NCBI GenBank assembly: GCA_951394405.1
Contig: OX596336.1
Coordinates: forward strand, 3,968,001-4,032,000
Length of the DNA stretch: 64,000 nucleotides
Origin: Coprinellus micaceus
Taxonomy: Eukaryota > Basidiomycota > Agaricomycetes > Agaricales > Psathyrellaceae
Reading direction: 5' to 3'
How positions within the stretch are numbered: position 1 is the first letter of the stretch; each line of letters opens with the position of its first letter. Positions 26,398 to 53,096 of this stretch are shown here, piece by piece. The position numbers were made by a program, and so were the translations under genes. The notes beneath the pieces are model-generated. The model saw only the letters and a program-made list of their open reading frames with translations. It was not told the DNA's origin and searched no databases.

Positions 26398-27091
26398 TCC
26401 GTAATCCTACTTGGGAAGGCCATCGAAGACCACGCTCACCCAGATTGCACCAGATTCACGGGTAATTAGGAATCACCCTTTCACTTGCTCCGAGAAGGGA
26501 CAATTGACGAACACTTTATCCCTTGGGAGGGGCATGAATCATGCCCACGAGTTTGTTAGGCAGACCTGTGTCGGTAGAGATGAGGATAGTAGGAGGAACG
26601 CCATCGATAAAGCTGAACCAAGTCTTGAAACACATCGACGACCAAGTTCGGGGAAGAGGCAAGAAGTTGAAGTCCGACCGTCGGGTGGATCACGCGCACT
26701 GGAGTACGTAATGATTTCACATGATCGTATGGGCGGCAGGCGGCCGCCGGATTGGGCGGAAACTCCACCACCCTCATTCAGCGAGAATCATGCATCCCGA
26801 CTGACTGCTCTAATCTTTCCGTCTCTTTCCCTCCAGCTCCCCCTTTTGTGAATTCAATCCCTCGTTCGTGTTCCCACACCTTTCAGAGCCACTTGAGCGC
26901 CGTATCCTAGGTAGACTTGAGTTTCTTTCTTTGTCCAAGACCCACCCCAGGTGAGACCACAGCCTCGAGGCAGTGGTTGTTTGGCAGTTGTTTTCATTCG
27001 AGAAAATAGTGGTGACGTTGTCAGTATCTTCTTACCTCGTCGATAGCCCGTACAAACATCGCTCCTCTCCGCTGCATTCATTCCTGAGCCA

Positions 27092-27788
27092 ATGCCCTCT
27101 GAACCCTGTCGTCGCGGTCGACGATCCTCTCGTCATGCATCGAAGGCAGCCGCCTCATCCGCTCGTCTGAACGGCGGTCGCCCATCAAAGCACAAAGCAC
27201 GGGGTGGCAGAGCGTCTTCTCCCCCAGCAGAACATAGCTCTCAGGCGAGTGTTTACTCTCCACCTCCAAGTTGGCTGCGGGGTGACTCATCGAAGTCGTG
27301 GTCTTCATATCCAGGGCACGCGCTCTCGGATGAGCTCGCACCCTTCATCCGGCGAATCCCGCGCCTCCCCTTACCTCGTGTCAGTTATGGATAGCATCGC
27401 TAGCACCAGTGTTATGGAGTACGAAATCGGCCTCCTTGTGTCGCAGGCTCTCGACAAGGTTGGAGATCTTGTCACCCACAACGGCAAGAGGATGCGCATC
27501 CACACCACCACAATGTCGAAACCCAACAGCGTCAACATCATCACTGCGCACACCACCTTGCACGGGGCATTTGCTCAGGCTACGGCCGATGCAAATTCGA
27601 TGAGGTCCACTCATCCGTCGCATCCAGCAGGGCTTCACCTTGGTGCCCGACAAATTCAGGAATTGGGTAGTTTATTCAGCCGTAATCCGGCTGCATTCCA
27701 ACCCGTCATGTTGCGGATGTGGTACTCGAATAACAAAAGGCCAGATGTTTCCGAAATAGTGTCATCTCCAACACTTCTCGTTTCTTAG
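27092..27788 (+). CDS. Possible hypothetical gene (copy A')
   Basis: Copy of the uncertain gene at 3047-3743. The same frame problem is present, so whatever explains it predates the duplication. Confidence 0.3.
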
Positions 27789-28159
27789 TCCTCAACTTCC
27801 CAGACCCCCACTCTCAAAACATTCATAACACAGACAACATGTTGTACCACCCCCTGCCCTCATCTTCTTTCCTTATGCTTTCATTACTATGCCCTCACCT
27901 GCTATTACTTATGCCACCTACTATGCATCACGAACAACTACTTACCCCCGCGGGTTTGATGCTCTCCCAAAGTCCCAACTTTCGGTATCAGAGAGTGTGC
28001 TGAATAGATGGCGGAATGCTGTGTGAATTCTTGAGGTGCGTTCCCTAGTAATCGCGCAACAAGCGGAATAGTCACTGCATATATTTAAAAGGGAGTATAT
28101 CATACCAATCTGAAAATAGGCCGGCAGGAAAAGTAATTAACGGAAAGTGAGTGGGATAT

Positions 28160-29288
28160 CTAGAGGCGAATGGTTACAACATCGCGATGATGGCACTGGT
28201 GGTAACGGGCCATGGTGCAGAATCGCCCGCAGTTGTTGCACTTGATAAGGAGCCTTGTGAGATCGGCAGGACGCATTCCCGCATTCTTCTCCATGTTTGT
28301 GAGGGCTTGGATGAGGTCAAAGCCCTCCTCTCGGGTGTTAACGGCATCACCTTCACACCGATGCTGAGAACGTCTCTCGGAGTAGATAAGATTGTCGCAC
28401 AAGCGGCATTTGCGAAAAACGCGCTTAAGCTCTGACTTCGTGACTCCATCCCCGAACAGGTACCCGAATCGCAGGAGTACGTCAAACGGCGTGAACGTTG
28501 GCCGTTCCGGATTGAACGAGGGAATATCGCAGGACGCGAGGAATCCATTGCCAACTGAAGAAACTACGGCAAGTTCAAGTTAGCATTGAACCCCAGTGTC
28601 GTGACGATCATAGGCGCTTACAAGACGGTTCAGGTGTAAATTCGTACCGGTATTCTTTGAACAGCTCTTGCGGGTCCGAGTCCGGGTCGAGGAAGGGCAA
28701 GGCTATTCAAATGTTTCGACTTTTTAGAATCAACGTTGAAGATAGCGTTCTTACCAGGCTCAAGAGTCTCGAGTGTGTCCGACGCCAAACGCCCTAGCGT
28801 CAGGTCGACGGCATTGGAGACTAAAGATGCAATAGATATTCGCCTGGGTGAGCATTCAGAAGCGAACTCCATACACGTCACCACTCACTTTCCAACCCGC
28901 CGCCGCCGCCTTGCTCATTCGAGGACGTGGGGAGAGGGGAGGGCTGCAGCTGCGAGACCCGGTGCTCGTCGTTGGGCTCCCCACCATGGCTGGCAGGACT
29001 GGAGTACACCGGAAGGAGCTCTCCCCTCTGTTGTTTCGGAGGAGTGGAATACTCCCAAAGAGGTCTCGGCGCTGGAGATGCTCGGCGCAAGGGACGAGGG
29101 GCTCTCCCATACGGGGTTGAGTGAGGAAGAAGGGCCCTCTCCCTTGCCCGGGGAACAGTAGCTGGTGTGGAGAACCGCACACGGTCGCCTCCCCCCATGA
29201 GGGACGGCGCCAAGGGTGCGACGAGGCCAGACGCGAACGTCTGGAGCCGTGAGAGAGTCGGCGTCGCAGCTGGCGTACTCGATTCCAT
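28160..29288 (-). CDS. Cys/His-rich hypothetical protein (copy A')
   Basis: Copy of the gene at 4115-5243, with the same exons and Cys/His motifs and no differences that I noticed. Both copies look equally intact, so either could be expressed. Confidence 0.6.
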
Positions 29289-30080
29289 TGGGTATGTGTG
29301 AGATGAGCGTGGGGAGAGAGACTAGTGCCAAGTGGGGGGCTGGGTTGGTGATTCTGGTGCGGGCGACGTTCCTTTATACATCGTCCACCTTCGCCGCTCC
29401 TTATGAGCGACATGGCAATATAGGTAAATCGTGGCAACGAGCTATTCGGCCTCTTCAAAGTCGACGTCTCGGGCCGACACCAACTCCCGACGGTACTGGA
29501 AAGTCATGTACGTATCGGCGCCATGGCAGAAAACAGGAGCCCAGATGACCCAGTTTCGACCGGCGGATTTGATGGGTAGGTGTTGGGTGGACACTAAGCC
29601 GGGTCGCCTGGACAGAGTGCTGTAGCTTATCCGGTTCAACACACAGAGGGTGTGGGCCCACACGACGCTCACGAAGCCCATGATCGTGGTCTAGGAACAT
29701 GCGATTTTGATCGCGTCTTCTCCGATAGCCAATCTTTGGTAGTGATCAACCCGTGTCCGGCGTCTAAAGGTATGATGCAATCAGATACAACGCTTTTCGC
29801 CTGCACGAAACTCTCCTTCCTCCTTGTTCAATGTGTCAGGCACCGAACTCGTGTTACCCATAGACATCGGCGTTGTTGCACTCGCCGTTGCCTAGAATGA
29901 AAACCTGGACATGAAAATCGGACGAGCGCTCTTCTCAGGGTGCTCCGATCAAGACAACATATATCACCGCACAAGTCCTTCATATAGCGCACCGAAGGGA
30001 ATCCTGAAGCAGGACAACCCCCTCTATCGCATCGCAAACCGTCGACTCTGACCCCAGCTATCCCCAACAGTAACGTTATC

Positions 30081-30942
30081 ATGGCGAACCCTACTGCAAG
30101 GTGTGTCTATATTTCCTAGGTTTCGAACTGCGAGGTCCAGCTGCCCAAATTTCTCCAAATCTAACTTACCCATCCAGAGTCCCAGTCCAGCAGATAACCG
30201 GGGTGCTTCCCCAGGTTATGATTGTTGTGCTCAGGCGTAGTGAAGCGCGCACAGTTCACGAGAACAACCATATCCTTCAAGGAACGAGAGTTATCATTCC
30301 CATCGATCGCAGGAGGTCCGCCATCATCTACAGCAACAATGTCAGCGATTGGAACACCGTCGCCGCCGTCGCAAAGCTCCACGTCACAACGAACACCGTC
30401 CCCTTTGTGGTGTACAACCTTCCCAAGTCCCTTCGCAAGCTAGCACAACGTGTTGGGATGTTTGTTCTCTGGGCCGTCCTTGTCGTGGTTTCCGGCGCCC
30501 TCTCTTACAAATTGGCCACCTGTGAGCGTCCTCACCACTTTCAAATGACGGATGTGGCATTTACTGAAACCCATGATAGATTTAGGGTCTCTCGCCGCTG
30601 GTTTCGTGTTCGTCAACCCCTGGCAAGCTGTTCAGAGTGGATTTACGGACTTCGTCCGTGAGTAAAGACCGCCCCTGCCACAACTCGCTCATCGCTGACT
30701 ACCGCCTTTGTTATGGCTGTTTCCTGATCTTAGTAGCCTACGCGAAATTGGGCGACATCACCCGCTTCAGTGGCCAGCTTCTTGCGAAGCACATCATCAA
30801 CTTCCTTCAACCCTACATTGGTAGGTGCGCATCTTTCCCTTGGAAGGAAATGGTCACTGATTGTCGTCGCATCACCGACTCGTCAGCCCAGGCGCCTGTT
30901 TCTGAGGGCCAGACCGCAATCGAGGGTCAAACCCAGGCTTGA
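30081..30942 (+). CDS. Membrane-protein-like hypothetical (copy A')
   Basis: Copy of 6036-6897 with the same exon structure. Its 3' end is uninterrupted here, whereas in copy A the last part is repeated again after the N gap. Confidence 0.55.
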
Positions 30943-31649
30943 ACGACCAAGCGCTGGGCGAGTTGCCATTTCTCCCTTCCTCGTAATCCTGGGCTTCTCT
31001 GTTGTACTCTTACCTCACCGTATTGCACGCATCTGTATTTGTGATTATACTATGCTTACCTGAATGACCGTCTATTCCCTTCCATCCCGTACCCCAAGGG
31101 TGTCCCCGCATCGTTGGCGAAGGCGGCTTGGCACAGCATCAGAAAGTTCGAGCTCAGCGCCATATACCGCTTGGTTCGGAATGTAAGCACAAATGAGATT
31201 TGGATTTGAAACTGCGGCCGTTGGACTTGTCCTGCGACCGGCTCTGTGCACCGCGACGGTCAGGCTTCAATCGGAGGCCCCTCGCCGACGTCGACCACAT
31301 ATATTCACCTCTGACTCTCTGTTGATGGACTTCCTGCGACGTAAAGCCTCAAAACCTCCGCTGCGGTGGAAGATTGGCGGATTTGCCTCGGAGGCGTGAG
31401 GGATCCTCATGATTTCTGCGAGGTCAGTCCTTGGGCAGTCCTCACCGATTGCGCGTTCTACTGTCCTCTGTGGGCGTGTCTATTCCGGCCTTCAAGTTCA
31501 ATGGATCAATTGAAATAGGAAGCACCTGGGATAACTACGGAGACACTTGGCAATCCGGTGGGACATGATTATGTTTGGGAGTCAGAATAAGTAGCGTGAG
31601 TGGTCCCTTTCTCGAGTATCATAGAAGCTGATGAGTACGCAGCGCCGCC

Positions 31650-34600
31650 ATGGATCTGGATGACATTGCTGGCCCTTCACTGGCGGCAGAATGGTCTCGG
31701 AAATGTGCCTGTGGAAAACGACTCTACCAACCCAACAGTTATACAAACCACATCAGAACCTGCTCTCGATACAAACGGGGTGTTGGGTCGACGCTGGAGG
31801 CGGCAAGGTCGCGCTGGAAGGAACGCCCGCCCCAGCCGAAGAAGGGTAAAGCGGCGTTGAACTCTTGGTTTGGAGATGAAGACCTCGATATCGACAAGCC
31901 CATCCGACCAGGTCCAGCCCCGCCTCAGGGTGCTAGCCCCGCTGAGGGGGGAAACGTTGTAAGCTTTGATGTATTTAGGGTGTCCTGTACTCACTCTACA
32001 ACATATATACAGCATGACGCCAGTTTCCGCCCCAGCGGAACCACTGATATGGAGGTCGAACAGGAGGCTCTCCCCCAGGCCGAGTCTGCCGAATTGGGTC
32101 GTGGTCGCCGCACGCGCAAGCCTACCAAGCACTTCAAGGATTTCGCGCTCACATCGACCATCCCCTTCCAAATACCGTCCATCCCCGCACAGAATCTCGA
32201 CACTTCAGACGAGTTGGACTCGGATAGTAGGCACGAGGCTCAGGCGCAGGAAAGCGAAGACCCAAGTCGCCCGCCTATTTATTTTGGCCCAGAGACCGAA
32301 CCCCAAGCTCGCCGTCTCACCATTTTCGACGAATCTTGTTGGAAGGAAACGGACAGAAATCCCTTTGGCCTCTACAAGAGGTACTGGACGATTGAAAAGG
32401 CACCCCACGATCCCGATTTCTACACATCTCCAGAGGATCTACAAGACGCTGTCCCAAATCCTTCGCTTACTACCGAGATAGATTGGGCCAAGGAGCTCTT
32501 CCCTTTTCCAAATCTCAACTCGTTCCTCCTTGGAGAATGGTATTGGAGCGACGGGAACGAGAAAAGCCGCGATTCGTTTCGTGACCTCATTGGGATCATT
32601 ACGAGCGACGACTTCCATCCAGACGATATCCGGGAGGCTAACTGGGGCCTCATCAACGACACTCTTGCGTCCTCAGAGTTTGACGCCCAGTCTCGGAGTA
32701 CTCTCGACTGGATGGGAGACGGAACGTCTTGGCACACTACCGCAATTCAGCTCGACGTCCCGTGCAATACCACATCCATTCAGCCCGGCCTCCACCACTA
32801 CGAGGTCCCTGACTTCCGGTATCGTCCATTGGTCCCTATCATAAAGCGACGGCTCGAGGATGCTACACGCGGCGACCAGTTCCACATTGTGCCCACGGAT
32901 TTGCGTTGGAAACCTCAAGAGGGAGGTCCTGATCTCCGCGTCTACGGGGAGCTATACAACTCCCCCGCTTTTATCAAGGCCTTTAAGGAAGTGCAGGTCG
33001 GTGCTGTTATACCTGCTGGACTTACATCTCGTGGGCTTGGGGATGGTTAGCAGATTACTGAGCTTCTTCTTCCAGAATCTCCCGCCCGAGCCGACCGAGA
33101 GCGGGCTGCCTCGATATGTCGTAGCATTGATGTTTGCTTCTGACGAGACGATGCTCACCTCGTTCGGGAGCGCAAAGATCTGGCCAGTGTACATGCTTTT
33201 CGGGAACGAGTCCAAGCACAGGCGGGCGAAGCCATCACTCAAACTCTTTGAGGAGATCGCCTACTTTCAACCGGTGGGCAGCTCAGCCTAGGCCACGTCG
33301 CCATCAAGGACCATTGCTGACACCGCCCATAGCTTCCAGACCGCTTCCAAGATTGGTACCTCGACGTGTCTGGAAAAAAGAATGTTGGGGATACCCTGCA
33401 TACCTTCCTCAACCGAGAACTCTTCCATGCACAATGGAAGATCCTACTCGACGACGACTTCGTTCATGCATATCGTTACGGAATTGTCGTAGACTCTTTC
33501 GATGGAAAGCGTAGACGCTTTTACCCCCGGGTGCTGACATATTCAGCCGATTATCCGGAACGGTACGTCTTCTACTCCCATCCTTTCCAGTGCTTTCTGT
33601 CTCAGAAGCTCGCCGTACCTCAGGGCTGCCGTCGTAAGCATCAGGAGCATGGGCGACCACCCGTGCCCCAGGTGTTTAGTCTCTGATACCGATATTCACG
33701 ACATGGGAAGCAACGCTGACCGAGCAATTCGAGAAGAGCAACGTAGACAAGATAACATTGACAGGAAGAAAAATATCAAAGAAGCCCGCGAGATCATATA
33801 TACGGACAATCTCAGTGTGAACACCAAGAAGGTAGAAGCACTCTTGAAGCCGACATCGCTGGTGCCGACCAGGGTAAGTCCAGTGCTAATCCTTTGTTTG
33901 TTCTCCCAATTGGTCCTGGGCTAATGACATGGGCGCTGCCACCCCAGAATGCCTTCTCGGAACGTCTCTCAGATTTCGGCCTCGATGTATATCACATCGT
34001 GGCTGTGGACATACTCCATGAGGTGGAAATAGGCGTGTGGAAGTCGCTGTTCATTCACCTTCTTCGTCTCTTAGAAGCCACTGACAAGTCGAAGCTGAAT
34101 GTTCTTAACACGAGGTAAGTCGCCGTTTAATCGAGTTAAAACGACGTCATCTCTCCCGGGTAGTGATGTTCTGTTCCTACCCTCTAGGTTTCGCGATGTT
34201 CCGGGTTTTGGGCGCGACACCATACGTCGTTTCGGCAACAACGTCTCTGAGATGAAGCAGTTCGCTGCCCGAAACTACGAAGATCTGCTACAGGTTCGCT
34301 TTCAACCATACTATCATATCATTCCGTGCCAGACGATTCTAAACTCTCCACCTTGTGCCAGTGTGCAATTCCCGCTTTCGAAGGCTTACTTCCGGGAGAC
34401 CACGACGGACGAGTTCTCGATCTCCTCTTCGTCTTCGCCCACTGGCATTCTCTGGCAAAGCTGAGGCTCCATACGGATGCCACGCTCGCCATTTTAGATG
34501 ATTGGACAACCATTCTCGGGGACGAGTGTCGAAGCTTCGTATCGGCAACATGCAAAGTGTTCGAGACTCAAGAGCTGAAACGCGAGTACCAGTCCAGAAA

Positions 34601-36497
34601 ACGCAGAGAAGCTCGGAAGAAGTCCACGAAAAGGGGGAAAGCCGTCGCATCGAGCCACCCAGACCCACCAACGACTCGAGAGATAGCGAACCTTGACACC
34701 ACGGAGGGTGACGGTGCGTGAACTTGTGTCAAATCTGGGTTCGCGGATCGCGCTGATGGGCACGTCTTTTGTATGCGTCCCTGTTTCGAATGGTATGCCG
34801 CTTTGCCTGCGGTTTTGGAGATAGAAGGTAATGTTTGAGAGCTCCCCTCCCTTATGACCCACCCTTTCTGACAGAACCGGTTTGAGCAGGGCGAAAATCG
34901 AAGACTTGGAATATCAATACCCCAAAATTCCACTCACTTGGGGACGTCCCCTCCTACATCCGGATGTTTGGGACGACGGACTCATATTCGACGCAGCTGG
35001 TGAGCCATTTTGAGTTCATTGGAACTAAACCTCGTATAACCTTCAAAGCAAGTCAGAACATTTCCACCGGTTTCCCAAGTCACGATACAAGCGCACGAAC
35101 AAAAGAAATGCTCCATTCCAGATATCCCGCATCCAGACTCGTCAAGCACGGATCCGTAAACTTCGGAGAAACCTCATTCCACCAACAGAAGAAGGGACAT
35201 TGGACGCGGACGGGTTCTCAACGCTCCCCTACTTTATCGGCAAGTCCCAGAACCAGCCATTGCAGTTGTCGCGCTTTCTATTTCTCAATTCCGGGGATCA
35301 CGCGGTGAAGGTGTGTGGTATATTTCAGGTCTAGTGTTGCGACATAGTTGGAGAGCTAAGTCTCGACCGAAGGATTTCATGCCGAAGCTGAAACGCCACC
35401 TACTTCCTCGGATCATTGAGAAGCTCTTGCAGGAGGCGAAGCTATCGCCAGAGGACCATCCCACGGCTCTACCTATCCTCAAGAAGATGGCTGGCGAACC
35501 TGAGGCACTAACCGACATTCACTTCAACCACCTCTTTATTCATTCAGAACGTATCTACCAGCATTCCATCGCCCAATTCAACTTTACCACGTACGACTGC
35601 CGACGTGACCAAGATACCCTCAATGCAGCCACCTCACGCCGCGACTTGATCTGCTTTGCGGAAGAATCGCCATTTCCAGACCCCGAAGAAGAAAGGTCTA
35701 CCGCATCCGGAGCTACGACAGAGCAAAAACGATTTGCCTATGCACGACTTCTTGGAAATTTTCACGCCAATATTGTCTATCTCGGCCCGGGAACGCTCGA
35801 CCACAGGCAACGCCGTCTCGATTTCCTATGGATTCGCTGGTATCGCCCCGACGACCTTCAATCGCCGGAGACGAGGATATGGGCATCTCGGCGTCCTGAA
35901 ATCGTTTCCTTTGTGCCTCTTACGGATCCTTTGGCCTGCGACTTCCTCGATCCCTCCAGAGTCGTGCGCGCTGCACACGTCATCCCCAGATACTCTGCGG
36001 GGAAACGTTACTCACCTGCGGACCATGACATCCGAATTTTCTCCCAGTGGGCCAACGATAAGGAAGAGTGGTTAGAATACTACGTTAACCCGTGAGTTTA
36101 CTTCATCCTCTTCTCGGCGAGGCTCATGGACATGGTTAGGTTCGCTGATCGCGACATGATGATGAGGTTTCATTGGGGTTTGGCAGTCGGACATGCCTAC
36201 TCTCACCCCGAAACCAATGCCACGCCCGCAAGCCCGGCTGCAGGCATCACTGCGCCCCGGTTACCAGAAGACCACATGGAAGTCGACATCAATACTCTCA
36301 GCGAACCCGGGGAAGGCTCAGCGTCAACAAAACATTCCTGTGGCGAGCCTCCTTCCGAGGAAGAGACAGATTCCGACGATTCAGCCTACGATAGGCCCGA
36401 CGAGGACAGCGGAAGGTCGAGCTGGAATTCGGAGAGTGAAACTGAGCAATGGGATACAGATAGTCGAGATGGGGACTCTGAAGATCTTGACTTATAG
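31650..36497 (+). CDS. Plavaka-type DNA transposase (copy A')
   Basis: Second complete copy of the transposase gene, with no gap or repeat nearby. It has the same introns and motifs as 9358-14205, including the N-terminal CACGKRLYQPNSYTNHIRTC finger and the C-terminal FADRDMMMRFHWGLAVGH. I noticed no coding difference. This is the cleaner copy to use as the reference gene model. Because the copies share long flanks on both sides, the transposon was probably carried by the larger duplication and did not transpose between the two sites. Confidence 0.93.
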
Positions 36498-36759
36498 GTA
36501 GTCGTCAAGATGTCTGGCTGCATATCATGTTGACTCGGGGGCATTCTGAAATCGCTAGAGGCTCTTTCCCTTGCCAGACCCGGTTTCCGTTCGGCGGGTC
36601 AAGTGGGGGCAACTCGGAAGATAGTCGTCACCCCGAGACTTCCGTAGATCCAGCGAGGTACAATGCTTTGGCTGTTCTGGTCTAGACGCCAGTGTGCGCG
36701 AGGATTTTCCGATTAACTAGATTAAGCTAAGCAATCGTCCGTCCAGCGTGTTTCGTGAC

Positions 36760-38112
36760 ATGCTGCCTCTTCAAGCTCAAACACACCACTGCGAACCCCT
36801 CCGACTCGCCTCCTTACTACAAGTTCTCGGGCTGGGAAGTGTGTTGGGATTCAACGCTTCGGAAGCGCCACCAGGTATGTCTCACCCTCTCTTGGAATAA
36901 TCTTGGCAACAGAGCTTACGGTGGATGAAGGCTCGGACGGCCAACTGATTTGTGTCCCAATCATCACAGTACTTCTCACTGTTGCTCTTGGGACTTTAAC
37001 GCCGGGGCATGACGGGCTCCGACAAGCTCTCGGTATGTCTCAACGTCATTTAAGTACCGAACTATGCCGTCGCATTGTTTTCCCGGAGTTCAGGGCATCA
37101 ACGTTTACACCCTACAGGATCGGGAAACATTCTTTTGTTTCCCTCCGTGGAACAACTTCAAAGGTTGTTTTTCCCAAGGCCAACGGTGCACCGGTCTCCA
37201 CTCGTATGTCTGTTGCCATTTCCTCCTCTTTATCCCTTTCTAATTTCCAATTCAAATGACTTGGAAATCACTTCGCTCCTACAGCCACCTTCCTACGCGC
37301 AATGGATGGTGTGGACTTGGTCCATGCAGCCGAGGGCCATACCGCTCCGAATACATCCAGCAGAATACGGTCACCTCATATTGAAGAAGTTACGGGCTGG
37401 CATACTGGATCGAGGGCAAGTTTCGATGACGAGGGCGATGTATGAGCCAAGCCAACAGGCTGGCACTGCAAGGAGTTCGGTAGGGATGCCGCCAGTAGTA
37501 CAGTCAGAGTAAGTTTCACCTTCAAGTCCAATGTTGGTCTCATCCAAATCGTCGAGTGTGCTGAGCCTATCATATAGGGGACGCTTAAAGGGCGCTCAGA
37601 GGCTATCGCAAGGGGACGATATGAACATCATGGCAACCCTCCAGCTGCGGCTGATTCTAGCGCCCATCAGACACCCCCCACTTCCGACATTTGGATACCC
37701 TATTCTGCAAGCTCTTCAGAACAGCGCGGCAAACGTGGGCGCCTTCAACTCGACCGTCACTCTTTTCTGTCGGCTGGATGGCGCTCAACCTCGCGTTGTC
37801 GCTAAGCTTGCCTTCGTCCGAATACACACTATCTTCGGCGATGCACCATCCCTAGTGCCCGCAACGGCAGTCCCCACAAGGCGATCTTGGAGTTGCGGCT
37901 GGTGTCGGTCTTGCCCGAGGCTCCCACTGGCGCGGCAAGATGTCTTTGCTAACAGGCGAGAGTCCTACTCGAGCCCGTCGGAGTCCAGGTCGGACGTGTA
38001 TGAGTCCTCCGAGAATGAGGAAGGGATAATTGTCGCACAAGCACGACTCGCGCCCGTGAGTGATGATGGTAGCTTCGATGAGGGCATGTGTGGGAGGTCA
38101 CTATCTCTGTGA
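36760..38112 (+). CDS. Spliced hypothetical gene after the transposase (copy A')
   Basis: Copy of 14468-15820. One amino-acid change was noticed: 37298 C versus 15006 T gives Ala in place of Val in PPSY(V/A)QWMVW. The intron sites are unchanged. Confidence 0.5.
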
Positions 38113-38791
38113 AACTGTGAATATGAGCTGTAGGCTATATTGGAATGGAATGGATTGTGCGAACGGGATCACCAGATGTTATGATTGGGCGGCATGCTCA
38201 GCGTGCAGCAGCTGAACATTCTTAATTGGGCGTCAGGCCTTGTCCGGGGACATCAGAACTGCTGAATTTTAGCATTCAAAAATCATCCCTTTCCCAACCG
38301 GTCCAATTAAGCTGAGGCTGCGCATCTGGCTCATGGTATTATCGTAGTATTGTCAACCAACCATCCAGCATACACCTGGGAAGGTGCAGCTTGTCAGATA
38401 GGATAGGAGAGCGAGAATATGACCATGGCTTGACAATTTGATGTGAAACAGCCCCAATACTTACGGAACCTGAGCGAGAAGGATATCAATGAGAATCCGA
38501 TGACCTTGGACCTTCAACGTGTATCAGGCTGTATCAGGGTGCTCGGGTGGGATAAGCGGACCAATTGCGCTCAACAAGGACCGTCCCGGCGGCTGCCTGA
38601 CACTGCGAAAGTCATACCTTATCTGGCGATCTCTGAGATGTCGGACGTCTAGCCCTTGATCAAGACTATCCAGGAAAGCAAGCCAAGGCAAATTCTCCTG
38701 ATGTTCGCCATGCACGCAAGACCGAAGTGGTGAGTACTTGGTCTTGGCCAGTTTTCTACAAACGATGATGTTTCTTCACCCTTGCCTTCAG

Positions 38792-40723
38792 ATGGCCCAG
38801 GTAAGTCGAAACTCTGCCAAGCGGTGAATGTTCAATGTTAGACACCTTTTTCCCCAGAAACTTGAAGTGAGTCAAAGTCCTGCAAACCGACAAGTGTTGC
38901 TCAACACCACACGCCCTGTTTACCCTCCAGATTGTAAGTCCAAACTCCTCAAACCGACGAGTGCCACTCAACGCCACACACCCCGTGTATCCTGCAGCCC
39001 GTAAGTCCAAACTCCTCGAACCGATGAGTGTCGCTCAACGCAAGATACCCCATTGTCCCTCCAGCCAGTAAGTCCAAATTCTTCAAACCGACGAGTGTCT
39101 CTCAACGCCAGACGCCCCGTGTACCCTACAGCCTGTAAGTCTAAATTCCTTGAATCGATGAGTGTCACTCAACGCCACACATCCCCTTTGCCCTGCAGCC
39201 CGTAAGTACATATTCCTCGAACCGATGAGTGTCACACAAAGCAAGAAACCCCACTCCCCCCCAGGGAGTAAGTCCAAATTCTTCAAACCGACGAGCGTTG
39301 ATCAACGCCAGACGCCCCGTTTGCCCTTCAGAGCGTAAGTCCGAGTTCCACAAACCGAGAAGCGTTACTCAAACGCCAGACGCCCCGCTTGCCCTCCAGA
39401 TCGTAAGTCCAAGTTCTGAAAACCGACGAGCGCCACTCAACGCCAGTCGCCCCGTTTGCCCTCCAGCCCGTAAGTCCAAGTTCCGCAAACCGACGTCACT
39501 CGACGCCAGACGCCCCGTGCGCCCTCCAGGAAGTAAGTCCAAATCCCCCAATCTGACAAGTGTTGCTCAACGCCATACGCCCCGTTTCTCTCCAGTCAGT
39601 AAGTCCAAGTTCCGCGAACCAACGAACGTCGCTCAACGCCAGGCTCCTTGCGCCCTTCAGATGGTAAGCTCGAGCTCCTCGAACCAACGAGTGCTGCTCA
39701 ATGTCGGATCCCCGCGTACCCTTTTAGTTTGTAAGTCCAAGTACTGGAAACCGACGAGCGTCACTCAATGCTAGACGCCCCATGTGCCTTCCAGCGAGTA
39801 TGTCCAAGTTATTCAAACCAACAAGCGTCACTCAATGCCAGACTTGCTCTCCAGGCAGTAAGTCCAAATCCCTCAAACTTACAAGTGATGTTCAACGTCA
39901 CACGCCCCGTTTGCCCTCCAGTCGGTAAGTCCAAATCCCTCAAACCGACGAGTGTGGCTCAACGCCACACTGTCTGTTTGCCCTCCAGCCCGTAAGTCGA
40001 AATTCCTCAAACCAACGAGTGTTGCTCAATACCCGATACCCTGCGTACCCTTTAGTGGGTAAGTCCAAGTTCCACAACCCGACGAGCGTTACTCAACGCC
40101 AGATACCCCGTATATCCTTTAGGTCGTAAGTCCAAATTCTTCAACCTGACGAGCATCACTCAACGCCAGATACCCCGCATACCCTCCAGACAGTAAGTCC
40201 AAATCCCTCAAACCGACGAGTGTTGCTCAACGCCAGACACCCCACACACCCTTTAGCTGGTAGATCCAAGTTATTCAAACCGACGAGTATCGCTCAAAGC
40301 CGGACGCCCATCTTCCCTCCACAAAGTAAGTCCAGGTCCCTTGGAATGGCCAGTGTTTCTCAATGCAGGGCTTCTCGTGTTACCCAGCAAGTAAGCCTAA
40401 ACTCTTCCAAGTGATACTAAGTGTTGCGTGCTCAATGCTAAACGTCCTGCGGCCCCCATTCTCACCCCTTTCAGCCTGTCCGCTCGAGTGCAAGATTGCG
40501 CAAACAGCAACCTGGGCCATCCAGATGTGTGTTCACTGAACCTCTTAATCCGCCTTCCCTTCACCCTCTTACCACTTCCCGTAGTCCAAGTCCTGGAAGA
40601 CTAGTTCAACGAAAGGCACGAGACCTTCAAGACCCATCTCAGGCACTATGTCCCGGAAACAGTACGTTCATACTCGCTTTACGAGGCCTTTACATATTGA
40701 AACGGATGCAGAGTTCACATTGA
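38792..40723 (+). CDS. Gene with an array of single-codon exons
   Basis: Not a known family. The model starts at ATG 38792 in a 9-nt exon (M A Q, 38792-38800). A 57-nt intron and a second 9-nt exon (K L E, 38858-38866) follow. Then come 23 exons of exactly 3 nt between introns of mostly 64 nt, and a last exon from 40475 with 82 codons to a TGA at 40721-40723. All introns are phase 0. The total is about 111 residues. The codons begin at 38931 ATT, 38998 CCC, 39065 CCA, 39132 CCT, 39199 CCC, 39265 GGA, 39332 AGC, 39400 ATC, 39467 CCC, 39530 GAA, 39596 TCA, 39661 ATG, 39728 TTT, 39795 CGA, 39855 GCA, 39922 TCG, 39989 CCC, 40056 TGG, 40123 GTC, 40190 ACA, 40257 CTG, 40323 AAA and 40388 CAA. The last exon is basic and Ser/Pro-rich (TSRSPSPGR). 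An upstream exon ending at 38729 with GTGAGT may extend the gene into copy A'. A further GTACGT...ATGCAG intron near 40661 is possible. Splicing is inferred and was not observed. Confidence 0.6.
38867..40474 (+). repeat. Tandem array of 24 intron-like units
   Basis: The consensus unit begins GTAAGTCCAAATCCCTCAAA, continues with CCGACGAGTGTTGCTCAACG and ends with CGCCCCGTTTGCCCTCCAG. Of 24 units, 19 start GTAAGT, two GTAAGC, and one each GTGAGT, GTATGT and GTAGAT. All but one (the unit ending at 40322 in AC) end in AG. Fifteen are exactly 64 nt. The others are 57, 60, 62, 62, 63, 63, 63, 65 and 84 nt. A CTCAAC-like branch site lies about 25 nt before most 3' ends. Two less similar introns, 38730-38791 and 38801-38857, precede the array. 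Spacers between units are always 3 nt. Confidence 0.93.
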
Positions 40724-40945: not shown

Positions 40946-42562
40946 TTACTCGACGGTGGGAAGTACAGGGGTGAATGTAACCTCCATCCCTTGCCGCCGC
41001 AGCTCTTTGACCCAAGATGCGTCATTGGGATGCTTCGCAAACTTGGGCCTGTGCACCATAGTTACCACGAGCTTATCTAAAGAGGCGCCACTTCTACACC
41101 GCGTCGCCGACCTCCTCTGAATGTTTAGAGTAAAAAGTTCCCATTCGAACTCGTCGGATAAATTGAGAAGTTCCAGGACCCTAAGCTTCGGGAGGAACAT
41201 TTGCTGGGGGAGGTGAGGGATATCAAAAAGGTCCCTTGGGACGGGGACGTCGTCCAATATCAGGTGCTGTAGACCATGAAACGGTTGTAGTAGTCGTTGC
41301 AGGCCGTGTCGAGAAATTGGGAGCGAGTGGATCCGGAGGTGGCGGAGTTTGTTGAGTCGCTGTGACTGCTCAAGGAAGTGTAAAAAGTTGCTCACACAAC
41401 TCGTGGCGTGCGGGTCTTCGTGCATTGCGTCAGACGAGTCCTCCCCATTTTCGAAGCATATGTCCAGCTCGTCCAGCTCCGGCGCCTTCAAAAATAGGAA
41501 AAAACAGGTGTCAGAGTCTCGTGACGGCATGTGGTATATTCGGAGAGTTCGGAGGTTGGGTAGAAGATAGACTTTGCTTCCAAAGGGCTCTTCGCCCCAA
41601 TTTGTGCCCATTTGAGGTAGGTCGAGGGTAAGCACTTGGATGTTGGGGCACTGTTCAGCGGATTCGAGAAGCCACCGGACTGGCCAGTAGTTCGTTTCAA
41701 GAACGAGGGTCGTCAAATGTTGCAGGTTGATGGGTAGGACTTTGGGGCCGGTACACTCTTCGAAGTTGGGCAGTTTCAGGGAAAGGCTGGTGACTGAAGG
41801 CGGGAGCGTGTTGAGGATGCCAGTTTCAGCACCCGAAGAACGGCCCCACCAGGACTCCACCACCAACGTCAGGGAGTGTAAGTTAACCCAAGGGCTGCTG
41901 CCCTCAGGCATTGTGGCCGTCTTGGCCCCCAGGGAGGAAACCAATGCTTGAAAACATTGGATACTTGAGCATCGAAGTCGAATATCGTCGAGAATAGGAC
42001 CCTCGACTAGCAAACGCGCTACCCCACCCCCCGCCTTCAACAGGCACCCGTCGTCGTCGTCTTCGTCCGAGGATCTTTCCGAGTCGCTGTCATCGATATC
42101 TGAATCGTCATCGCTCCAGTGGTCTATATCAAAGAGGGTGAGGATTTTTGGGAGGCCTCCCGAGCGCGAAAGCCACGTTTGAACCTTGTCGGCCGATGCA
42201 GACAGCGAGGTTCCTTTGATCTGAACGTTCGTCCACAACGCCGGGGTAGCCAACGCCGCCTGCTGCCACACCTTACAAACGAGGGAGAGGCGCTTCAGCC
42301 TCCAGTCGTTGACAATGATCTCGTTGTAAACTGGGTGGATGATGGCGAAGGTAAAGATCTCCCCGAGAATTTCTCGTGGTATCGTTCTTTGCCATGGAGA
42401 GGGGAGCTGTGTCTCGAGCGCCTTGCACTCCGCCTCGAGCTTCCGAAGGTCTGCGCGGAGCTTAGCTATCGCTTCCTTCCGGGTGTCTACTTCATGCTGG
42501 ATGGCCTCTAGGTTTGGGGAGGTACAAGGAGGAGATGGGGCCGAAGGTTGATGTCGATCCAT
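40946..42562 (-). CDS. F-box/LRR-like protein
   Basis: Single-exon gene of 538 codons, intact from ATG 42562. The N-terminus has a coiled-coil-like segment (TRKEAIAKLRADLRKLEAEC), then an F-box-like core, TIPREILGEIFTFAI ... LSLVCKVWQQAALATPALW. An acidic insert follows near residue 155 (DDDSDIDDSDSERSSDEDDD). The rest is leucine-rich, consistent with degenerate LRRs (LNKLRHLRIHSLPISRHGLQ). The family normally recruits substrates to SCF ubiquitin ligases through Skp1. The substrate cannot be predicted. Its 3' end converges on the single-codon-exon gene. Confidence 0.85.
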   Translation of the reverse strand: MDRHQPSAPSPPCTSPNLEAIQHEVDTRKEAIAKLRADLRKLEAECKALETQLPSPWQRTIPREILGEIFTFAIIHPVYNEIIVNDWRLKRLSLVCKVWQQAALATPALWTNVQIKGTSLSASADKVQTWLSRSGGLPKILTLFDIDHWSDDDSDIDDSDSERSSDEDDDDGCLLKAGGGVARLLVEGPILDDIRLRCSSIQCFQALVSSLGAKTATMPEGSSPWVNLHSLTLVVESWWGRSSGAETGILNTLPPSVTSLSLKLPNFEECTGPKVLPINLQHLTTLVLETNYWPVRWLLESAEQCPNIQVLTLDLPQMGTNWGEEPFGSKVYLLPNLRTLRIYHMPSRDSDTCFFLFLKAPELDELDICFENGEDSSDAMHEDPHATSCVSNFLHFLEQSQRLNKLRHLRIHSLPISRHGLQRLLQPFHGLQHLILDDVPVPRDLFDIPHLPQQMFLPKLRVLELLNLSDEFEWELFTLNIQRRSATRCRSGASLDKLVVTMVHRPKFAKHPNDASWVKELRRQGMEVTFTPVLPTVE

Positions 42563-45218: not shown

Positions 45219-46748
45219 TCAGAGATGTGCGCCTATGATGATGTGCGCGTCAATTCCTTCCTCCCGCAGATTCTTCGCATCCCAGGTATCGTCCGGGTGC
45301 TGACCCCACCGCGAAGACAACTCCACCACAAGTTTACGGAACTTCGAGGAACCGGGAGCTACACAGCGGTTCGCTCTCGACGAAGCGAAGCCGCAAACGT
45401 CCTGGTAACCGAACGATTCGTACATGTGGAAGAGTTCAAGGATTTCGAGGCGAGGGAGGATGTTGTCGACTACCGTGTTTCGCCGGAAGAAAGTGGAGTC
45501 GACACCAATTCGATCCAGGGTCAAGTGGGTAACCCACGGAAGACGGGAGAGAACGTGATCCAATCTTTCTTCCGAAATGGTGATCTCAGCGAGACGGAGA
45601 CGGTGGAACGTTTCCTCGCACCGAGACCGCTTGATGAGGGACCATATTTCATCGCCGAGCCTGAATCGATCATCGGGGTCGAAGTCATCGTCCTCGAATT
45701 GGATGTCGAGTTCGGCAAGGGTCGGCGTCACGAATAGACGAAGGATGTTGAGGTTCCATCCCACGTTTACAGGAAGTTCGTGGATGCGAAGGATGCAAAG
45801 ATTGGGGAAGGTCAGATGACCCCCTTCACGCTGGAACGAAGTCGCGTCCCACCAGTGTTGATCCGCCCATGACAGTTCAAAATCCATTTTCAGGAGGAGC
45901 GTATGAAGGTTTTTACACAATGGCAAGGTCCCTTGGTCCCATGTGGTCGGCCAAACGAAGGTGAACGCGAGGTTGGTGAGGTTGCCAAGCATCGTTTGGA
46001 TGTACGCGGAACCGTTTGCAGCTTGGGCGTCATCTTGCAGGAATGGACCGTCCAGGTTGAGCGTCGTTGGGATAAGGTGGGGACCGGGCTGTCCCTCGCC
46101 GGCTACGAAATGGGGACCAAGCCCTAATTCCGATGTGTTGAGTTCGATGGTCTTGATAGAAGTCCATGATGGGGGAGGAGCGTTATTGGGGGTCATTAAC
46201 TCGAGAGAAAGCCACTGGAAACACTCGGAGGTTTCCGACATCATGGTCAGACGATCAATTGAGGGGCCGCTTTTCAGGAAGTCAACGAGTCCCTCGACAA
46301 CCAGAACACAACCATCTTCATGGCCCGCACAAGCCCTGCCCGAGTAGAGGGTGAGGGAGCGTGGGGTAGTCCCTGACCTGGCGAGCCAATTCTTGACCTT
46401 GACGAAGTCGATTGGGTCCCGAGTGTCAAGATCCAACCCAACCGTGTTCCAAAGTTGGGGTGTCGAGAGTGCCGTCGTTCTCCACGTCTTACAGACAAGG
46501 CATATTGTTGTGAGTGCGCTGGGGATTTTTCAGGGGTCTTCTACGTTGGAAACCACGGCTATGAATATTTCTCCTAGGACTTCGGCTGGAAGTTCGCGTA
46601 ACGGGGACAACAGGGCTTGGTATTTCTTGACTTCGAGTTCGAGTTTCCGAATGGCTGCCATGCGAGTCGCTATTTCCCCTTCGACAGAGGCGGTTTCGAG
46701 TGCCTGCAGGGGAGCATTGCTAGTGAACAAGGATTCCAATGGGTCCAT
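45219..46748 (-). pseudogene. F-box/LRR gene with one in-frame TGA
   Basis: Paralogue of the intact gene at 53499-55028. ATG 46748 opens MDPLESLFTSNAPLQALE, then the F-box core LRELPAEVLGEIFIAVVSN. A TGA at 46532-46530 stands where the paralogue has a sense codon (KTPQ in its sequence). The frame is otherwise open: CLVCKTWRTTALSTPQLWNT and then about 400 residues of leucine-rich sequence to 45219. One nonsense change in an otherwise clean frame suggests very recent loss, readthrough, or a sequencing error. It lies 234 bp downstream of a tRNA-Val gene on the same strand. Confidence 0.8.
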
Positions 46749-48659: not shown

Positions 48660-48999
48660 TCATGTCCTGCCAGCAGTGGGAACTTGGTCCACCCAATTAC
48701 CGCTCTATCAGCGACACTAATACCTCTGTTCCTTCTCGGCTCCCTTGCGGATACCTCAACTCGAGGTTATTTGGAAGCTCGCCAAACCATGGGGGCAAGC
48801 TATCTCACTGCAAGCGGTGGCGCAGAATATGCATCCCCATACAAAGTAATGAGCGGAGCATGTACAGCTGCCAGGGCCAGGGAAAACCCTGCTCTCTCAA
48901 ACAGACCATCATCATCGCTCGACCTCATTTTATTGTCCGCCTTCGACAGCTACGTGGACCAAGGCGCGCAGGAGTGACGACGAGCATACGTTGCCTCCC

Positions 49000-51217
49000 A
49001 TGGGGTTTGGGCTTGGACGCACGCTGCGGACCATGAAGAGTATCGGTCGTCTATCTAGGGCGCCTACCCCTTCTCCCATTCTTCACCTGGAGTCGCCTAC
49101 CCCGCATCTACTGGTCTCCAACCAGGCTCCAACGGAGGTCGAAGCTCAGAGTATCAGGCAAGCGATTCGGCAGGCCGAGTCTCAACTATCGGAATTCGAC
49201 TTCAAGGGGCACGATGTCCGAGCCTCAGACCCCGGCCTCACCTCCAAGCAGCGGGACGCCTACCTAGAATTCATCAGAGCGCACGAGCAAATTCTCTCGT
49301 CGTGTAGACGCCTACCAGTAGAGATCCTACAGGAGATCTTTCACTTCATCTTACCCCAGGATCCTCAGACCAATCTCCCCACGCGATACTGGAGGGCGTC
49401 GTCGCAAGTCTGCATGCCGTGGCGCGAGGCTGCTCTCACCATCGCCGAGCTTTGGAGTTACGTCCCCAGGCTCCGACTCTCCGACAAGCGAACACATGAG
49501 CCTCTCTTCCTCGCCTCCTTGACACGGTTCCTGTCCTTGTCTGGTAACGGTCCCCTTCGTCTCCGCATTGATGCCCCATTCCGCGAATACAGAAGTGGAA
49601 GCCACCCAGCGCTGGACGAGCTTATGAGGCACGCGGAGAGGTGGGAGTACCTCCAGATGGACTCTACATTTTCGACGTACAAGCTGTGCTTTACGAAGTT
49701 GGGTCTCCAGGGCGCGTTCAAGTCCTTGAGGTACCTCGAACTCCACATATGGCGATACGACTCCACTGAAGGCCCGTTCATCGCCTTCCAGGACGCGCCG
49801 AAGCTCGAAGAGGTTTCGATCCGCGGGACTTTCCCACTCGGGATGGAGCTTCCGTGGGGCCAGCTGAAGGTGTACAAGGAGGGAGTCCAAAATCACACAG
49901 GGCTGCGAATGGTACTCAACAATGCGAAGAATCTGGAGTGGCTGGAGGTCACGAGGCAGACTGAGTGCATCCTCAGCGGTCCGGTCCCTATGCCGCGGTT
50001 AAAGACGTTGTACATGCGCTACGACAATGTCATCCCACCCGATAATGTTATTGCGCTCCTCGTCCTCCCCGCACTCGAGGACCTGCAGATCGTCGAGGCC
50101 CCAGGGGAACTTCTGCCCTATCTTACCCATAATCTGTTTGGGTCTTTGGAGCAACTCCGATCAGAGTACCTCTATGTCGCCACACCACCCACCGATCCAC
50201 AGGTCCAGTTGAGGCTCAGAAGGTTGGCTTTCCAGACGCAGGCCATTACACCCGGTGACCTGATCGCCCTGCTCAGGCTTGCCCCGTTGCTTGAAGAGTT
50301 GGATATGCCTCACCCACCGAGTTACGACCTCCAGGCCCTGATTCACTCCCCGCGGGTGACAAGCGGCGCCCCGCTAGTTCCAAACCTTCGCCGGCTCTAC
50401 ATTCATACCGATGGCGATTGGGGCGATGAAGATACCTATTGGAAGATTGCTCGGTCGAGATGCGAACGTCAATTGCGAACGTCAGATGAGCAAGGCGACT
50501 ACGAGGAGGTGCATGTCGCGACATTGGAAACATTCCATATCATTTGTGAGAGACCAGAGCTATGTGGCACCCAGCAAGCGACGTTAGAAGGGTGGTTCGA
50601 CCCAGCTTCGGATAGCGACCCGACGTTCCAATCTTTGAGCTTGGCGAAGAGCGTCCTGCTTTACCAGCTCCCAGAGCTCGTAAATCTTGCGCCTCGTTCT
50701 AAGAGGGGAACGTTCACAGGCACCGCTGGTTTCTCGAAACGACTACATACGGCCGTGGTTACTGTGGAGAAGATTCCACCTATAACGAACGCCCATCACC
50801 TCTACGTCAGTCTGGCCATACATTTGGATAGAGCTCTTGACTAACATAACGACTTTCAGCGCTCAGGAATACACCTCGTACTTCGCCGGATGGCACAGCT
50901 CCCAGACGGCCATATACCCGACGATGGCGAGTACCAGTTCCGGGAACGCGCGGGACGTTTGGTCGATAGATGGATGCCACTGTTCGAAGAAGACATCAAG
51001 GACAACCTTCGCTGGGTCCGGATGGGGGAGCACTCCCTCGCATACATACCGTCTCAGCACGGTCAGCCACTTGTTTCTCTAAGATATACATTAGTGATGG
51101 CTGAGCATTGGCCCTTCTCTAGAACTACGAAAACAACCAGACGCTGTCGAGGAGCTCGTCTTTGGGATGGAGAACGATAGGCACAACTTCAACATATTCT
51201 GGCATAGATACATGTAG
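49000..51217 (+). CDS. F-box/LRR-like protein
   Basis: Three exons. ATG 49000 (MGFGLGRTL; a second possible start is at 49033) opens a long first exon with the F-box-like core CRRLPVEILQEIFHFILP ... ASSQVCMPWREAALTIAELW. Leucine-rich segments follow (GAFKSLRYLELHIWRYD, LVPNLRRLYIHTDGDWGD). Intron 50806-50859 (54 nt, CTAAC branch) joins HHLY to RSGIHLVLRR. Intron 51062-51122 splits a Glu codon. The last exon ends ELVFGMENDRHNFNIFWHRY, with the stop TAG at 51215-51217. The start is only about 340 bp from the MITE, whose insertion may lie in its promoter. Confidence 0.83.
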
Positions 51218-51229
51218 ACGCCTCCGGAA

Positions 51230-53096
51230 CTACGAGTCCAGGTAGCCTTTCAACTGCGTAAGCTGCGCCTTTTCCCCCTCACACTTTGCGCAATCGGGCC
51301 ATTCCGGGATAACCAACCCCTCGTGCCAGTGCGTAACGGTTCGATTGAACGGATCCTCCCATTGCGGTTTCTTCGTCGTATGCGCCGCTAACGTCAGGCC
51401 TTCCTTCACCTCCTCCTTGAGATTTACGACGACCGCACTCAGTAGCGTCTCGTATCCCTCAACGAGGAACAGCCCTGCTTTCTTCAACTGCGATATCCCT
51501 TCTAAGGGTCTCCATCTATCCTTCACCATGCTCGCGAACCCTTCAGATGTGAGAGAGAGGAGTGAGGGCGTGGCATGGAGTCGGCCACCACCGTAATTTG
51601 TAGGGGTACAGTCGATCGTGAGCTCTTCGAGGCGGGAAAGGATAGCATAACCTTCCCAATCCACTTGAAAGTGGGCCAAGAGCTCGTCATAGTCCGTGGA
51701 TAGCCCAAGAGTGAGCTCGCGGAGGTTTGTCGTGGCATTCAGAATCGACATGACCGGGGTGACAGACGCTTCCCAAGACAAGTGGTATAGGGAGAGGGAT
51801 GTAAGGTTGGCAAGGGCGTTGGTGCATTCGAGGTTACGGACGTTAAATGCGGGTGTGTCTATCCCACATTCCCAGTCGTACGCTCCCAGTCGGAGGTGTG
51901 AGAGCACGGGGTATTTGTGTTGAGGGAAGGAGATGGTCTCGTCGTCGTCGTTTTGAAATATGAGTGTGAGGTCGAGAAGGTCACGGAAGGTAGCCACAGG
52001 CATGAGTTCAACGGACGGGTCGTAGCTGTCCTCTTGTTTAACGTAGAATATCGCGTGTGTGAGGCTTCGGAAATTCGGAAAGTATTCAGCCCACTCGCGA
52101 TAGGGAATCCAAGAGGTTATAGCAATGTGCGTGAGGTTGCCCCACGGCATTCGGTAAGCTTGAAGAAGTAGTTCTTCTGTGATATTCTTCCCCATTCGAA
52201 GGCACAGTCGGCGCAACGATGGCAACCGCTCCGGAGAGAGAATCTCCACCACCCCTCCCGTCCCTTGGGTCTGTTCCGAGTAAAGAACCAGAGACTCGAC
52301 AGCGTCGAGCGTATTGGAATCCCACCAGCTGGGTGGCGCCCCTAGTGCTCGCAACAAGCCATTCAAGTCGGGAGATCCCAATGAAAGGTTTGCTATCTTG
52401 ACATCATGGTTGAACACTTCCAATGCTGGGTTGGTGACATCTGAGAATCCACCACTGGGCTGGGGTTCGAGGTACAGATCGAAGGATTTCGGAAGGTTGG
52501 TGGCGCGGCCATAGTGCGTCTTCGCCATCCTCTTGAACGCGGAAAAGTCTCGTATCCTTAGCACGGAGCTGTTCAATGAACGGATGGAGAATGTTGCCCA
52601 TAGATTAGGCATCTGATGCGCGACTTGTCTCCATCGGCTGCAGACTTGCGCCAGAGAAAATGGTGGCTGGTCCTGGTACATGGGCGCGTGGCGCGTACAC
52701 GCCGATATGGCGGACGGGAGCGAGTGAGAGAATACGATCTCCAGGATCTCTGTTGGGAACACGGAGATAGACGTTTCCAAACGCTTCGTACAAGCCAGAA
52801 CTTCGTCCTCCCCCCGGGCAATGAGCTCGGTGACCTTATCCTCCTGTTCCATGAGGATTGCCAATTGAGCGGCTATTTCCTTAAGCTTTGCACGATGTTC
52901 GTCGAGCCGAGCTTCCCGACTGTGCAGGTAGTCCCTGAGTGTTGTGTATTCCGTCGGGTGGAGCGGTTCGTTAGAATACAGGACTTTCTTAACATCTTCG
53001 GGAAGGGGGTCATTTCCCTGGAGTCCAGTACAATCGTGAGAATCAGCCGCTTCGCCTGTGCCGTCACCGTATTCCGTAGCGTACCGACGGGATCAT
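51230..53096 (-). CDS. F-box/LRR-like protein
   Basis: The long exon encodes a coiled-coil (YTTLRDYLHSREARLDEHRA ... ILMEQEDKVTELIARG), then the F-box-like core ISVFPTEILEIVFSHSLP ... LAQVCSRWRQVAHQMPNLW and leucine-rich sequence (LPSLRRLCLRMGKNITEELL). The coiled-coil is open far upstream of the first Met in that exon. I therefore place the start at ATG 53096 in a 12-nt first exon (M I P S), joined by a 67-nt intron (53018-53084, GTACGC...CTCCAG) to GNDPLPEDVKKVLYSNEPLH in phase 0. This is inferred from frame alone. It ends 13 bp from the stop of the convergent F-box gene at 51217. Confidence 0.8.

Follow-up and report, generated by a model that had tools for sequence, protein, structure and literature searches.

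The 64,000-nt window analyzed here (Coprinellus micaceus assembly GCA_951394405.1, contig OX596336.1, positions 3,968,001 to 4,032,000 of the forward strand) contains a tandem array at 38867–40474, hereafter W, in which 24 intron-like units are separated by 23 spacers of three bases. We examined W and its relatives elsewhere in the genome as candidates for gene tails spliced together from exons of a single codon each. The original prediction described W as 23 one-codon exons separated by 64-nt introns. Direct reading and parsing bore out the numbers of units and spacers, the constant 3-nt spacer, the GTAAGT donor in 19/24 units and the terminal AG in 23/24, the exception being the intron before AAA at 40323, which ends in CAC. 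The introns were less uniform than described, as only 15 of the first 23 are 64 nt long, the others measure 57–65 nt, and the 24th measures 84 nt. In Tandem Repeats Finder output the array appears as 22.1 copies of a 67-nt period with 73% matches. The reading frame is phase 0 throughout the chain of exons, including the array, with a predicted array product of IPPPPGSIPESMFRASPWVTLKQ, and neither the 23 spacers nor the two preceding 9-nt exons contain any stop. The parts of W and its flanks are as follows, with A9 and A11 denoting related arrays on the same contig.

38704–38729, plus strand: truncated remnant of the host gene's fifth exon (TT CGC CAT GCA CGC AAG ACC GAA GTG, phase 0 at its end)
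38792–38800, plus strand: predicted 9-nt exon ATG GCC CAG
38858–38866, plus strand: predicted 9-nt exon AAA CTT GAA
38867–40474, plus strand: array W, 24 predicted introns between 23 one-codon exons
38931–38933, plus strand: predicted one-codon exon ATT
38998–39000, plus strand: predicted one-codon exon CCC
39065–39067, plus strand: predicted one-codon exon CCA
39132–39134, plus strand: predicted one-codon exon CCT
39199–39201, plus strand: predicted one-codon exon CCC
39265–39267, plus strand: predicted one-codon exon GGA
39332–39334, plus strand: predicted one-codon exon AGC
39400–39402, plus strand: predicted one-codon exon ATC
39467–39469, plus strand: predicted one-codon exon CCC
39530–39532, plus strand: predicted one-codon exon GAA
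39596–39598, plus strand: predicted one-codon exon TCA
39661–39663, plus strand: predicted one-codon exon ATG
39728–39730, plus strand: predicted one-codon exon TTT
39795–39797, plus strand: predicted one-codon exon CGA
39855–39857, plus strand: predicted one-codon exon GCA
39922–39924, plus strand: predicted one-codon exon TCG
39989–39991, plus strand: predicted one-codon exon CCC
40056–40058, plus strand: predicted one-codon exon TGG
40123–40125, plus strand: predicted one-codon exon GTC
40190–40192, plus strand: predicted one-codon exon ACA
40257–40259, plus strand: predicted one-codon exon CTG
40323–40325, plus strand: spacer AAA, acceptor lost (..CCAC precedes), probably not included
40388–40390, plus strand: predicted one-codon exon CAA
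40475–40526, plus strand: 3′ exon ..KQQPGPSR/F, 52 nt, in frame with the W array, resembling the final exon of A9 and A11
40585–40604, plus strand: last exon ..QVLED then TAG (stop at 40602–40604); A9 and A11 have a stop at the equivalent place

The remnant at 38704–38729 was assigned by eye against the corresponding exon of A9 and of a further array, A10 (..FFRHTRKIEV / ..FFRHARKT), and the intron between the two final exons is 58 nt.

DNA, pattern and protein searches of the whole genome (50.3 Mb, 17 contigs) found ten arrays, W and nine others, with 194 spacers in total; the 6 codons in the pair of 9-nt exons of W were excluded from this count. Three of the others, A9, A10 and A11, lie on the same contig as W (C3) on the minus strand and share its intron repeat, with 51, 24 and 6 spacers compared to 23 in W. 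The remaining six lie on contig C10 (B15–B20, with 16, 14, 13, 17, 15 and 15 spacers) and have an intron repeat of mostly 66–67 nt that is unrelated to the W/A repeat. Two of the ten are incomplete. A10 (L010, C3:4105.9 kb) is missing its 3′ side and ends mid-intron, and A11 (L011, C3:4087.1 kb) is missing its 5′ side and begins mid-intron, its first unit being cut and the upstream intron of that unit incomplete. They are 19 kb apart on the same strand and may be the halves of a single array that an insertion or rearrangement has divided. One intron of the B18 array (L018, C10:2078.4–2079.6 kb, minus strand) has grown to 127 nt by a CT dinucleotide run. A remnant of the C10 intron repeat on C11 (L024, C11:91695–91821) is 75% identical, has altered splice sites, and on visual inspection resembles a decayed array.

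Predicted splice sites and spacing were both highly regular. An AG acceptor precedes 193/194 spacers and a GT or GC donor follows each one. Judged from sequence, the spacers qualify as microexons, defined as internal exons no longer than about 30 nt and bounded by valid splice sites. The array parse itself required splice sites; the independent test was a chain scan by exon length from 1 to 12 nt, in which length 3 gave a 20-unit chain in the window and chains of 6 to 49 at eight array loci, with chains of at most 2 for all other lengths in both cases. Once W was masked, no 3-nt chain longer than 1 was left on the plus strand of the window. Across the whole genome, a two-unit pattern with GTAAGT had 79 matches (78 in the ten arrays; reversed control 0), the same pattern with GTATGT had 48 (47 in arrays; reversed control 0), and that with GTGAGT had 3, all at arrays, with 3 in the reversed control. 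Pooled over the three donors, 128/130 matches fell at arrays.

One way to obtain near-identical introns between random codons would be a burst of mobile intron copies inserting between the successive codons of a pre-existing coding tail. Fungal introner-like elements, near-identical copies of short spliceosomal introns in many genes, provide a precedent (PMC4457414). Such a burst predicts insertion in all three phases at uneven spacing, whereas 194/194 spacers are 3 nt in a single phase. Among the DNA-search matches listed, those to the A repeat all lay at the C3 arrays and those to the B repeat lay at the C10 arrays or at the decayed remnant on C11, and near-identical introns dispersed in unrelated genes were not among them. 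Unlike introner-like elements (PMC4457414), the array introns lie in tandem within a single gene family, spaced by exactly one codon. The exact spacing and the restricted distribution among these matches disfavor this explanation, which we regard as highly improbable.

Eight of the ten arrays follow exons of a gene encoding a ubiquitin-like ULD_2 domain and a zinc ribbon, and phase 0 was assigned to the array exons of A9, of A10, and of all six C10 genes. The most complete array gene modeled was A9 (C3:4066–4071 kb, minus strand). Its upstream part consists of five ordinary exons with introns of 58–62 nt, encoding 253 amino acids (an N-terminal part, the ULD_2 domain and a CxxC..CxxC stretch) and leading in phase 0 into the array. 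The model continues through 51 one-codon exons and two last exons to a stop, for 323 amino acids overall. The predicted array products are MAPEMPIFNFNLEAQRRRQFEKLREIFLLRELFERELLEDFEFEFERRRRQ for A9 and VYEYPRPRQPRSFKEAVEFYTSEE for A10. ULD_2 (PF22893; cut-off 24.5 bits) was recognized by Pfam in A9 (62.6 bits), A10 (56.0 bits) and a partial B15 (30.3 bits); the kinship of the other five C10 genes to ULD_2 comes from protein search and translation only, and W has no ULD_2 part. The C10 arrays begin after a homologous exon, ..F(Q/R)HVQ(Q/K)TFV(Q/H), and 6/6 of their genes end in ..QEESRFEELP-stop, similar to the conserved A9 end, ..GPSRFHVLEE-stop.

The A9 protein was 39–50% identical to eight homologues from Coprinellus and Ephemerocybe in best local alignments, which stop at about the start of the array. 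The splice join into exon 5, GW(Q/H/R)V-CRRC (..GWQV-CRRCN.. in A9), was matched in 7/8 homologues, and the FRH motif was likewise present in 7/8. Compared as predicted proteins only, ULD_2 proteins of Psathyrellaceae are homologous up to the FRHxRK exon, and their tails differ both from each other and from the arrays. Of 27 database proteins, an Ephemerocybe model ends in ..QEENSRFEELDG and a C. micaceus model (P0019) has DDARREEESLFEGE after FRHIRKVFVE; none of the others has an end of the kind found in A9 and the C10 genes. Named relatives among the 26 protein matches listed came from Ephemerocybe, Coprinellus and Candolleomyces, the closest among those listed being 50% identical for A9 and 82% identical over 55% for B15 (P0009). 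The genome also has array-less family members on C9 and C2, with chains of at most one unit. An AlphaFold model of homologue P0004 had a mean predicted local distance difference test (pLDDT) score of 52.3 and a predicted template modeling (pTM) score of 0.43 and was not used further. Gene models and alignments strongly support the view that the W array duplicates the stretch encoding the tail in this fungal ULD_2 and zinc-ribbon gene family.

Codon statistics favored translation of the spacers. In phase 0, the 194 spacers contained 0 stops compared to 14.1–14.2 expected from column shuffling within arrays, and stop-free shuffles occurred in 0/5000 and 0/3000 runs; shuffling all letters gave an expectation of 11.2. 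Restricting the count to distinct codons within arrays left 0 stops in 116 vs 7.9 expected (stop-free shuffles 0/5000 and 1/3000), and neither TAA nor TGA occurred (P 0.0007 for these two alone, counted over distinct codons). Phase 2 had 10 stops where order shuffling predicts 10.1. NAG codons other than TAG numbered 2 vs 11.1 expected (distinct codons, 2 vs 7.6, P 0.002), a deficit to be expected if the codon is spliced at both of its ends, because an AG before a donor would compete as acceptor. The NAG:NAA ratio was 2:44 in arrays vs 288:217 in seven long window open reading frames (ORFs; 7/11 of those listed), part of this shift coming from an excess of NAA. Retention of any single intron would cause a frame shift or a stop in 189/194 cases.

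Variation within the repeat units was concentrated in the codons. In eight of the ten arrays (excluding A11 and B20; introns of 60–70 nt), mean intron identity was 0.73–0.91 vs a codon nucleotide identity of 0.26–0.44. When alignment columns were ranked by variability, using units of the commonest intron length in eight arrays (A11 and B17 having too few), the three codon columns held ranks 1–6 of 67 in W, A9 and A10, while in B15, B16, B18, B19 and B20 codon positions 1–2 held ranks 1–5 of 69–70 and position 3 ranged from 9th to last. Pairwise identity in nine arrays (A11 being too small) was 0.22–0.33 at positions 1 and 2 and 0.25–0.83 at position 3; in the C10 arrays the first two positions were near random and the third 0.40–0.83 identical. 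Donor and AG columns were 0.93–1.00 identical to consensus in W, A9 and A10, where they were measured. Codon identity was 0.25–0.41 between units with introns 85–95% identical, 0.34–0.55 at 95–98.5% intron identity, and 0.68–0.92 for identical introns. Six fully identical 64-nt introns in A9 are nonetheless followed by CGA, TTG or TTC. Adjacent codons were no more similar than shuffled ones at the 0.05 level in any of the ten arrays (lowest P 0.052, A10), where simple duplication of neighbors would make them so. B19 and B20 differ at 14/980 intron bases and 1/45 codon bases, too few to decide. As measured in these alignments, unit variation is unlike that of a drifting repeat. Either the amino acids were diversified, or the introns were homogenized by conversion with the amino acids protected, and both would imply that the codons are translated.

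A minisatellite within one large intron, with the first donor joined to the last acceptor and the inner sites never or rarely used, is therefore hard to accommodate: it should vary evenly, yet codon positions 1–2 were among the six most variable columns in 8/8 arrays ranked. The near-invariant donor and AG columns, the 0 stops in 194 spacers, the depletion of NAG, and the same 3-nt spacing in two unrelated repeats also speak against it, as do the first one-codon exons of A9 and the last one-codon exons of the C10 arrays, whose neighboring introns, on visual inspection, are not repeat copies. In its favor are the tandem repeat structure itself, the phase 0 at both ends of the A9 array, which means that skipping the whole array keeps the frame, and the fact that array splicing is a prediction from DNA sequence. 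We consider this explanation very unlikely. A plain minisatellite, for which variation spread over the unit without codon structure was expected and not found, is disfavored by the missing stops, the depleted NAG codons and the confinement of variation to codons.

A further possibility is that the exons are real and translated and that the array is a neutral or slightly harmful by-product, in which intron and codon are duplicated together, introns are homogenized by conversion, and codons drift. This presumes a fast-changing tail tolerant of duplications, and it finds support in A9, where some codons recur in runs and some introns are fully identical, in the climb of codon identity once introns exceed 95% identity, in the lack of amphipathic order in the A9 tail, and in homologue tails that do not align. 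Drift at the intron rate does not, however, give codon identities of 0.25–0.41 where introns are 85–95% identical, and the contrast in C10 between near-random positions 1–2 and a conserved position 3 looks as if amino acids were selected. We rate this by-product explanation as unlikely, with somewhat more in its favor than a minisatellite.

We consider it highly probable that each of 13 to 51 consecutive tail codons forms a spliced 3-nt, phase-0 exon of its own, flanked by repeated introns about 65 nt long. Real and selected one-codon exons are favored over a big intron or minisatellite by the absence of stops, the rarity of NAG, and variable codons set between near-identical introns. The one-residue-per-exon architecture put forward in the original prediction thus gained strong support from the nine further arrays, the in-frame host genes and the codon statistics. 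W itself is not its best example, with ubiquitin-like 5′ exons missing, one AG acceptor lost, and a GTAGAT donor present.

Several observations weigh against this interpretation. Splicing is predicted here from genomic DNA, and a single large intron, with phase 0 at either end, would also keep the frame. Neither A10 nor A11 is complete, and the two may be halves of one array; W has the defects just listed, and the zinc ribbon of the B18 gene contains an in-frame TGA. Phase 1 contained only 2 stops vs 4.1 expected; stops alone leave that phase open, and phase is set by the flanking exons. NTA codons were depleted (1 vs 17.3 expected; NTA makes up 3.2% of ORF codons) and NAA enriched (44 vs 16.7), and part of the stop and NAG depletion may therefore be composition. 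AGN codons, which also place an AG near the acceptor, were not depleted (9 vs 8.1 expected), and for GTN codons the deficit in the full set (3 vs 11.4) was unclear on distinct codons (3 vs 6.3, P 0.07). Codon-usage scores were best in phase 0 in only 6/10 arrays, with small margins (phase 2 was best in W and phase 1 in B17, B18 and B20), although the likelihood averaged over arrays was best in phase 0. Shuffle P values overstate significance because codons are not independent, with duplicated units and the near-identical B19 and B20. One intron column of W was as variable as the codon columns, and amphipathicity of the A9 tail was not above that of order shuffles (P 0.44–0.60). The S(R/K)F end was found by motif in 1/27 database homologues (P0008), with P0019 similar by eye.

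If the codons are spliced as proposed, each short intron would be removed by intron definition. GTAAGT and GTATGT are strong matches to U1, and the intron side of the donor is probably held near such a match because at every donor the exon side would be taken up by the codon itself. The scarcity of NAG codons probably reflects avoidance, as such codons would place a second acceptor against the donor. The repeat unit would then act as a portable one-residue cassette, with unequal exchange or conversion in the near-identical introns adding, removing or re-ordering whole residues with the frame intact, and selection on the peptide keeping codons diverse while introns are homogenized. Splicing errors would be removed or mild, because intron retention breaks the frame or brings a stop and skipping of one codon keeps the frame.

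The same asymmetry raises the question of whether each one-codon exon is an independent cassette included alternatively, giving many in-frame tails per gene. The near-identical sites could make exon choice loose; in contrast, NAG codons, which would be expected to favor skipping, are rare. Alternative inclusion has in our view a modest chance of being correct, and it is compatible with one-codon exons as such and not opposed to them.

We tentatively propose, with rather less than even confidence, a system in which a hypervariable peptide is stored as single-codon exons and intron recombination inserts, deletes and swaps residues in frame. If true, this would be a eukaryotic generator of diversity residue by residue, perhaps allowing the ULD_2 tail to recognize partners or to tell self from non-self. 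Confirmation of splicing would mean that 57 introns, 52 of which flank one-codon exons, are required for a protein of 323 residues. This would be an extreme test of intron definition, of the way the spliceosome deals with exons that leave no room for exon-bound factors, and of how introns could serve a gene as tracts for recombination without loss of frame. It would also suggest that such genes are truncated at the tail by gene predictors and short-read aligners.

Single 3-nt exons are known, but no description of arrays of one-codon exons was found among titles and abstract openings from the open PMC text searched (bioRxiv lies outside that scope). The splicing signals of this gene architecture are ordinary. 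The bicycle and megacycle genes of aphids resemble the arrays in having many tiny exons and fast-evolving products, one of them with >100 microexons (PMC9168663). They differ in that array exons are exactly 3 nt and phase 0 between repeated introns; in bicycle genes internal exons are almost all phase 2, unlike those of A9, A10 and the C10 genes, and the passages of PMC9168663 mention neither single codons nor a repeated unit of intron and codon. Human RPS24 has three consecutive microexons of 3, 18 and 22 bp that combine into several isoforms, but only one is 3 bp, and there is no array, intron repeat or hypervariable codon (PMC11162997). The 1-nt microexons of plant APC11 and VPS55, which have strong GTRAGT donors, demonstrate that spliceosomes can include ultra-small exons, but these occur once per gene and are conserved, not variable (PMC8831610). 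Stwintrons, nested short fungal introns that split a splice signal, share with the arrays an unusual packing of short fungal introns (PMC8469720, PMC12403724); array introns are instead consecutive, with donor and acceptor contiguous in 193/194 units. An apparent three-nucleotide exon in PMC4148152 is actually an exonic insertion.

Schistosome micro-exon genes also contain runs of small exons, in multiples of three and about 6–36 nt long. They resemble the arrays in these runs, but their exons are longer and not one codon each.

Within the window, W is most likely a 5′-truncated, decaying relic member of the family, judging by its missing 5′ part, its single lost acceptor (22/23 codons keep AG) and its GTAGAT donor. 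Positions 24046–38703 (14.7 kb) correspond to 1–16411 in two blocks with at least 99.97% identity, and parts of the duplicated block recur on contig C13 (L012, L013). Block identity stops at 38703, within the expected fifth exon of W, which is why W has no ubiquitin-like part. Adjoining the other block copy is a second family fragment:

16412–17060, plus strand: truncated ULD_2 gene copy (exon 3 onward), without array

The chain scan found no 3-nt chain units in 16000–19500. The left block copy has a 1.5-kb internal duplication (6839–8391 equals 8592–10144), and both blocks contain a tandem repeat of period 128 with 3.4 copies, at 1457–1919 and 25502–25964.

Long ORFs cluster beside W at 40946–42562 (minus), 45219–46436 (minus), 48991–50844 (plus), 51230–52864 (minus), 53499–55028 (plus) and 55442–57223 (minus). 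Going by motif, we take these to be candidate F-box/LRR-type genes. Pieces of the 40946–42562 region also match DNA adjoining A9 and A11.
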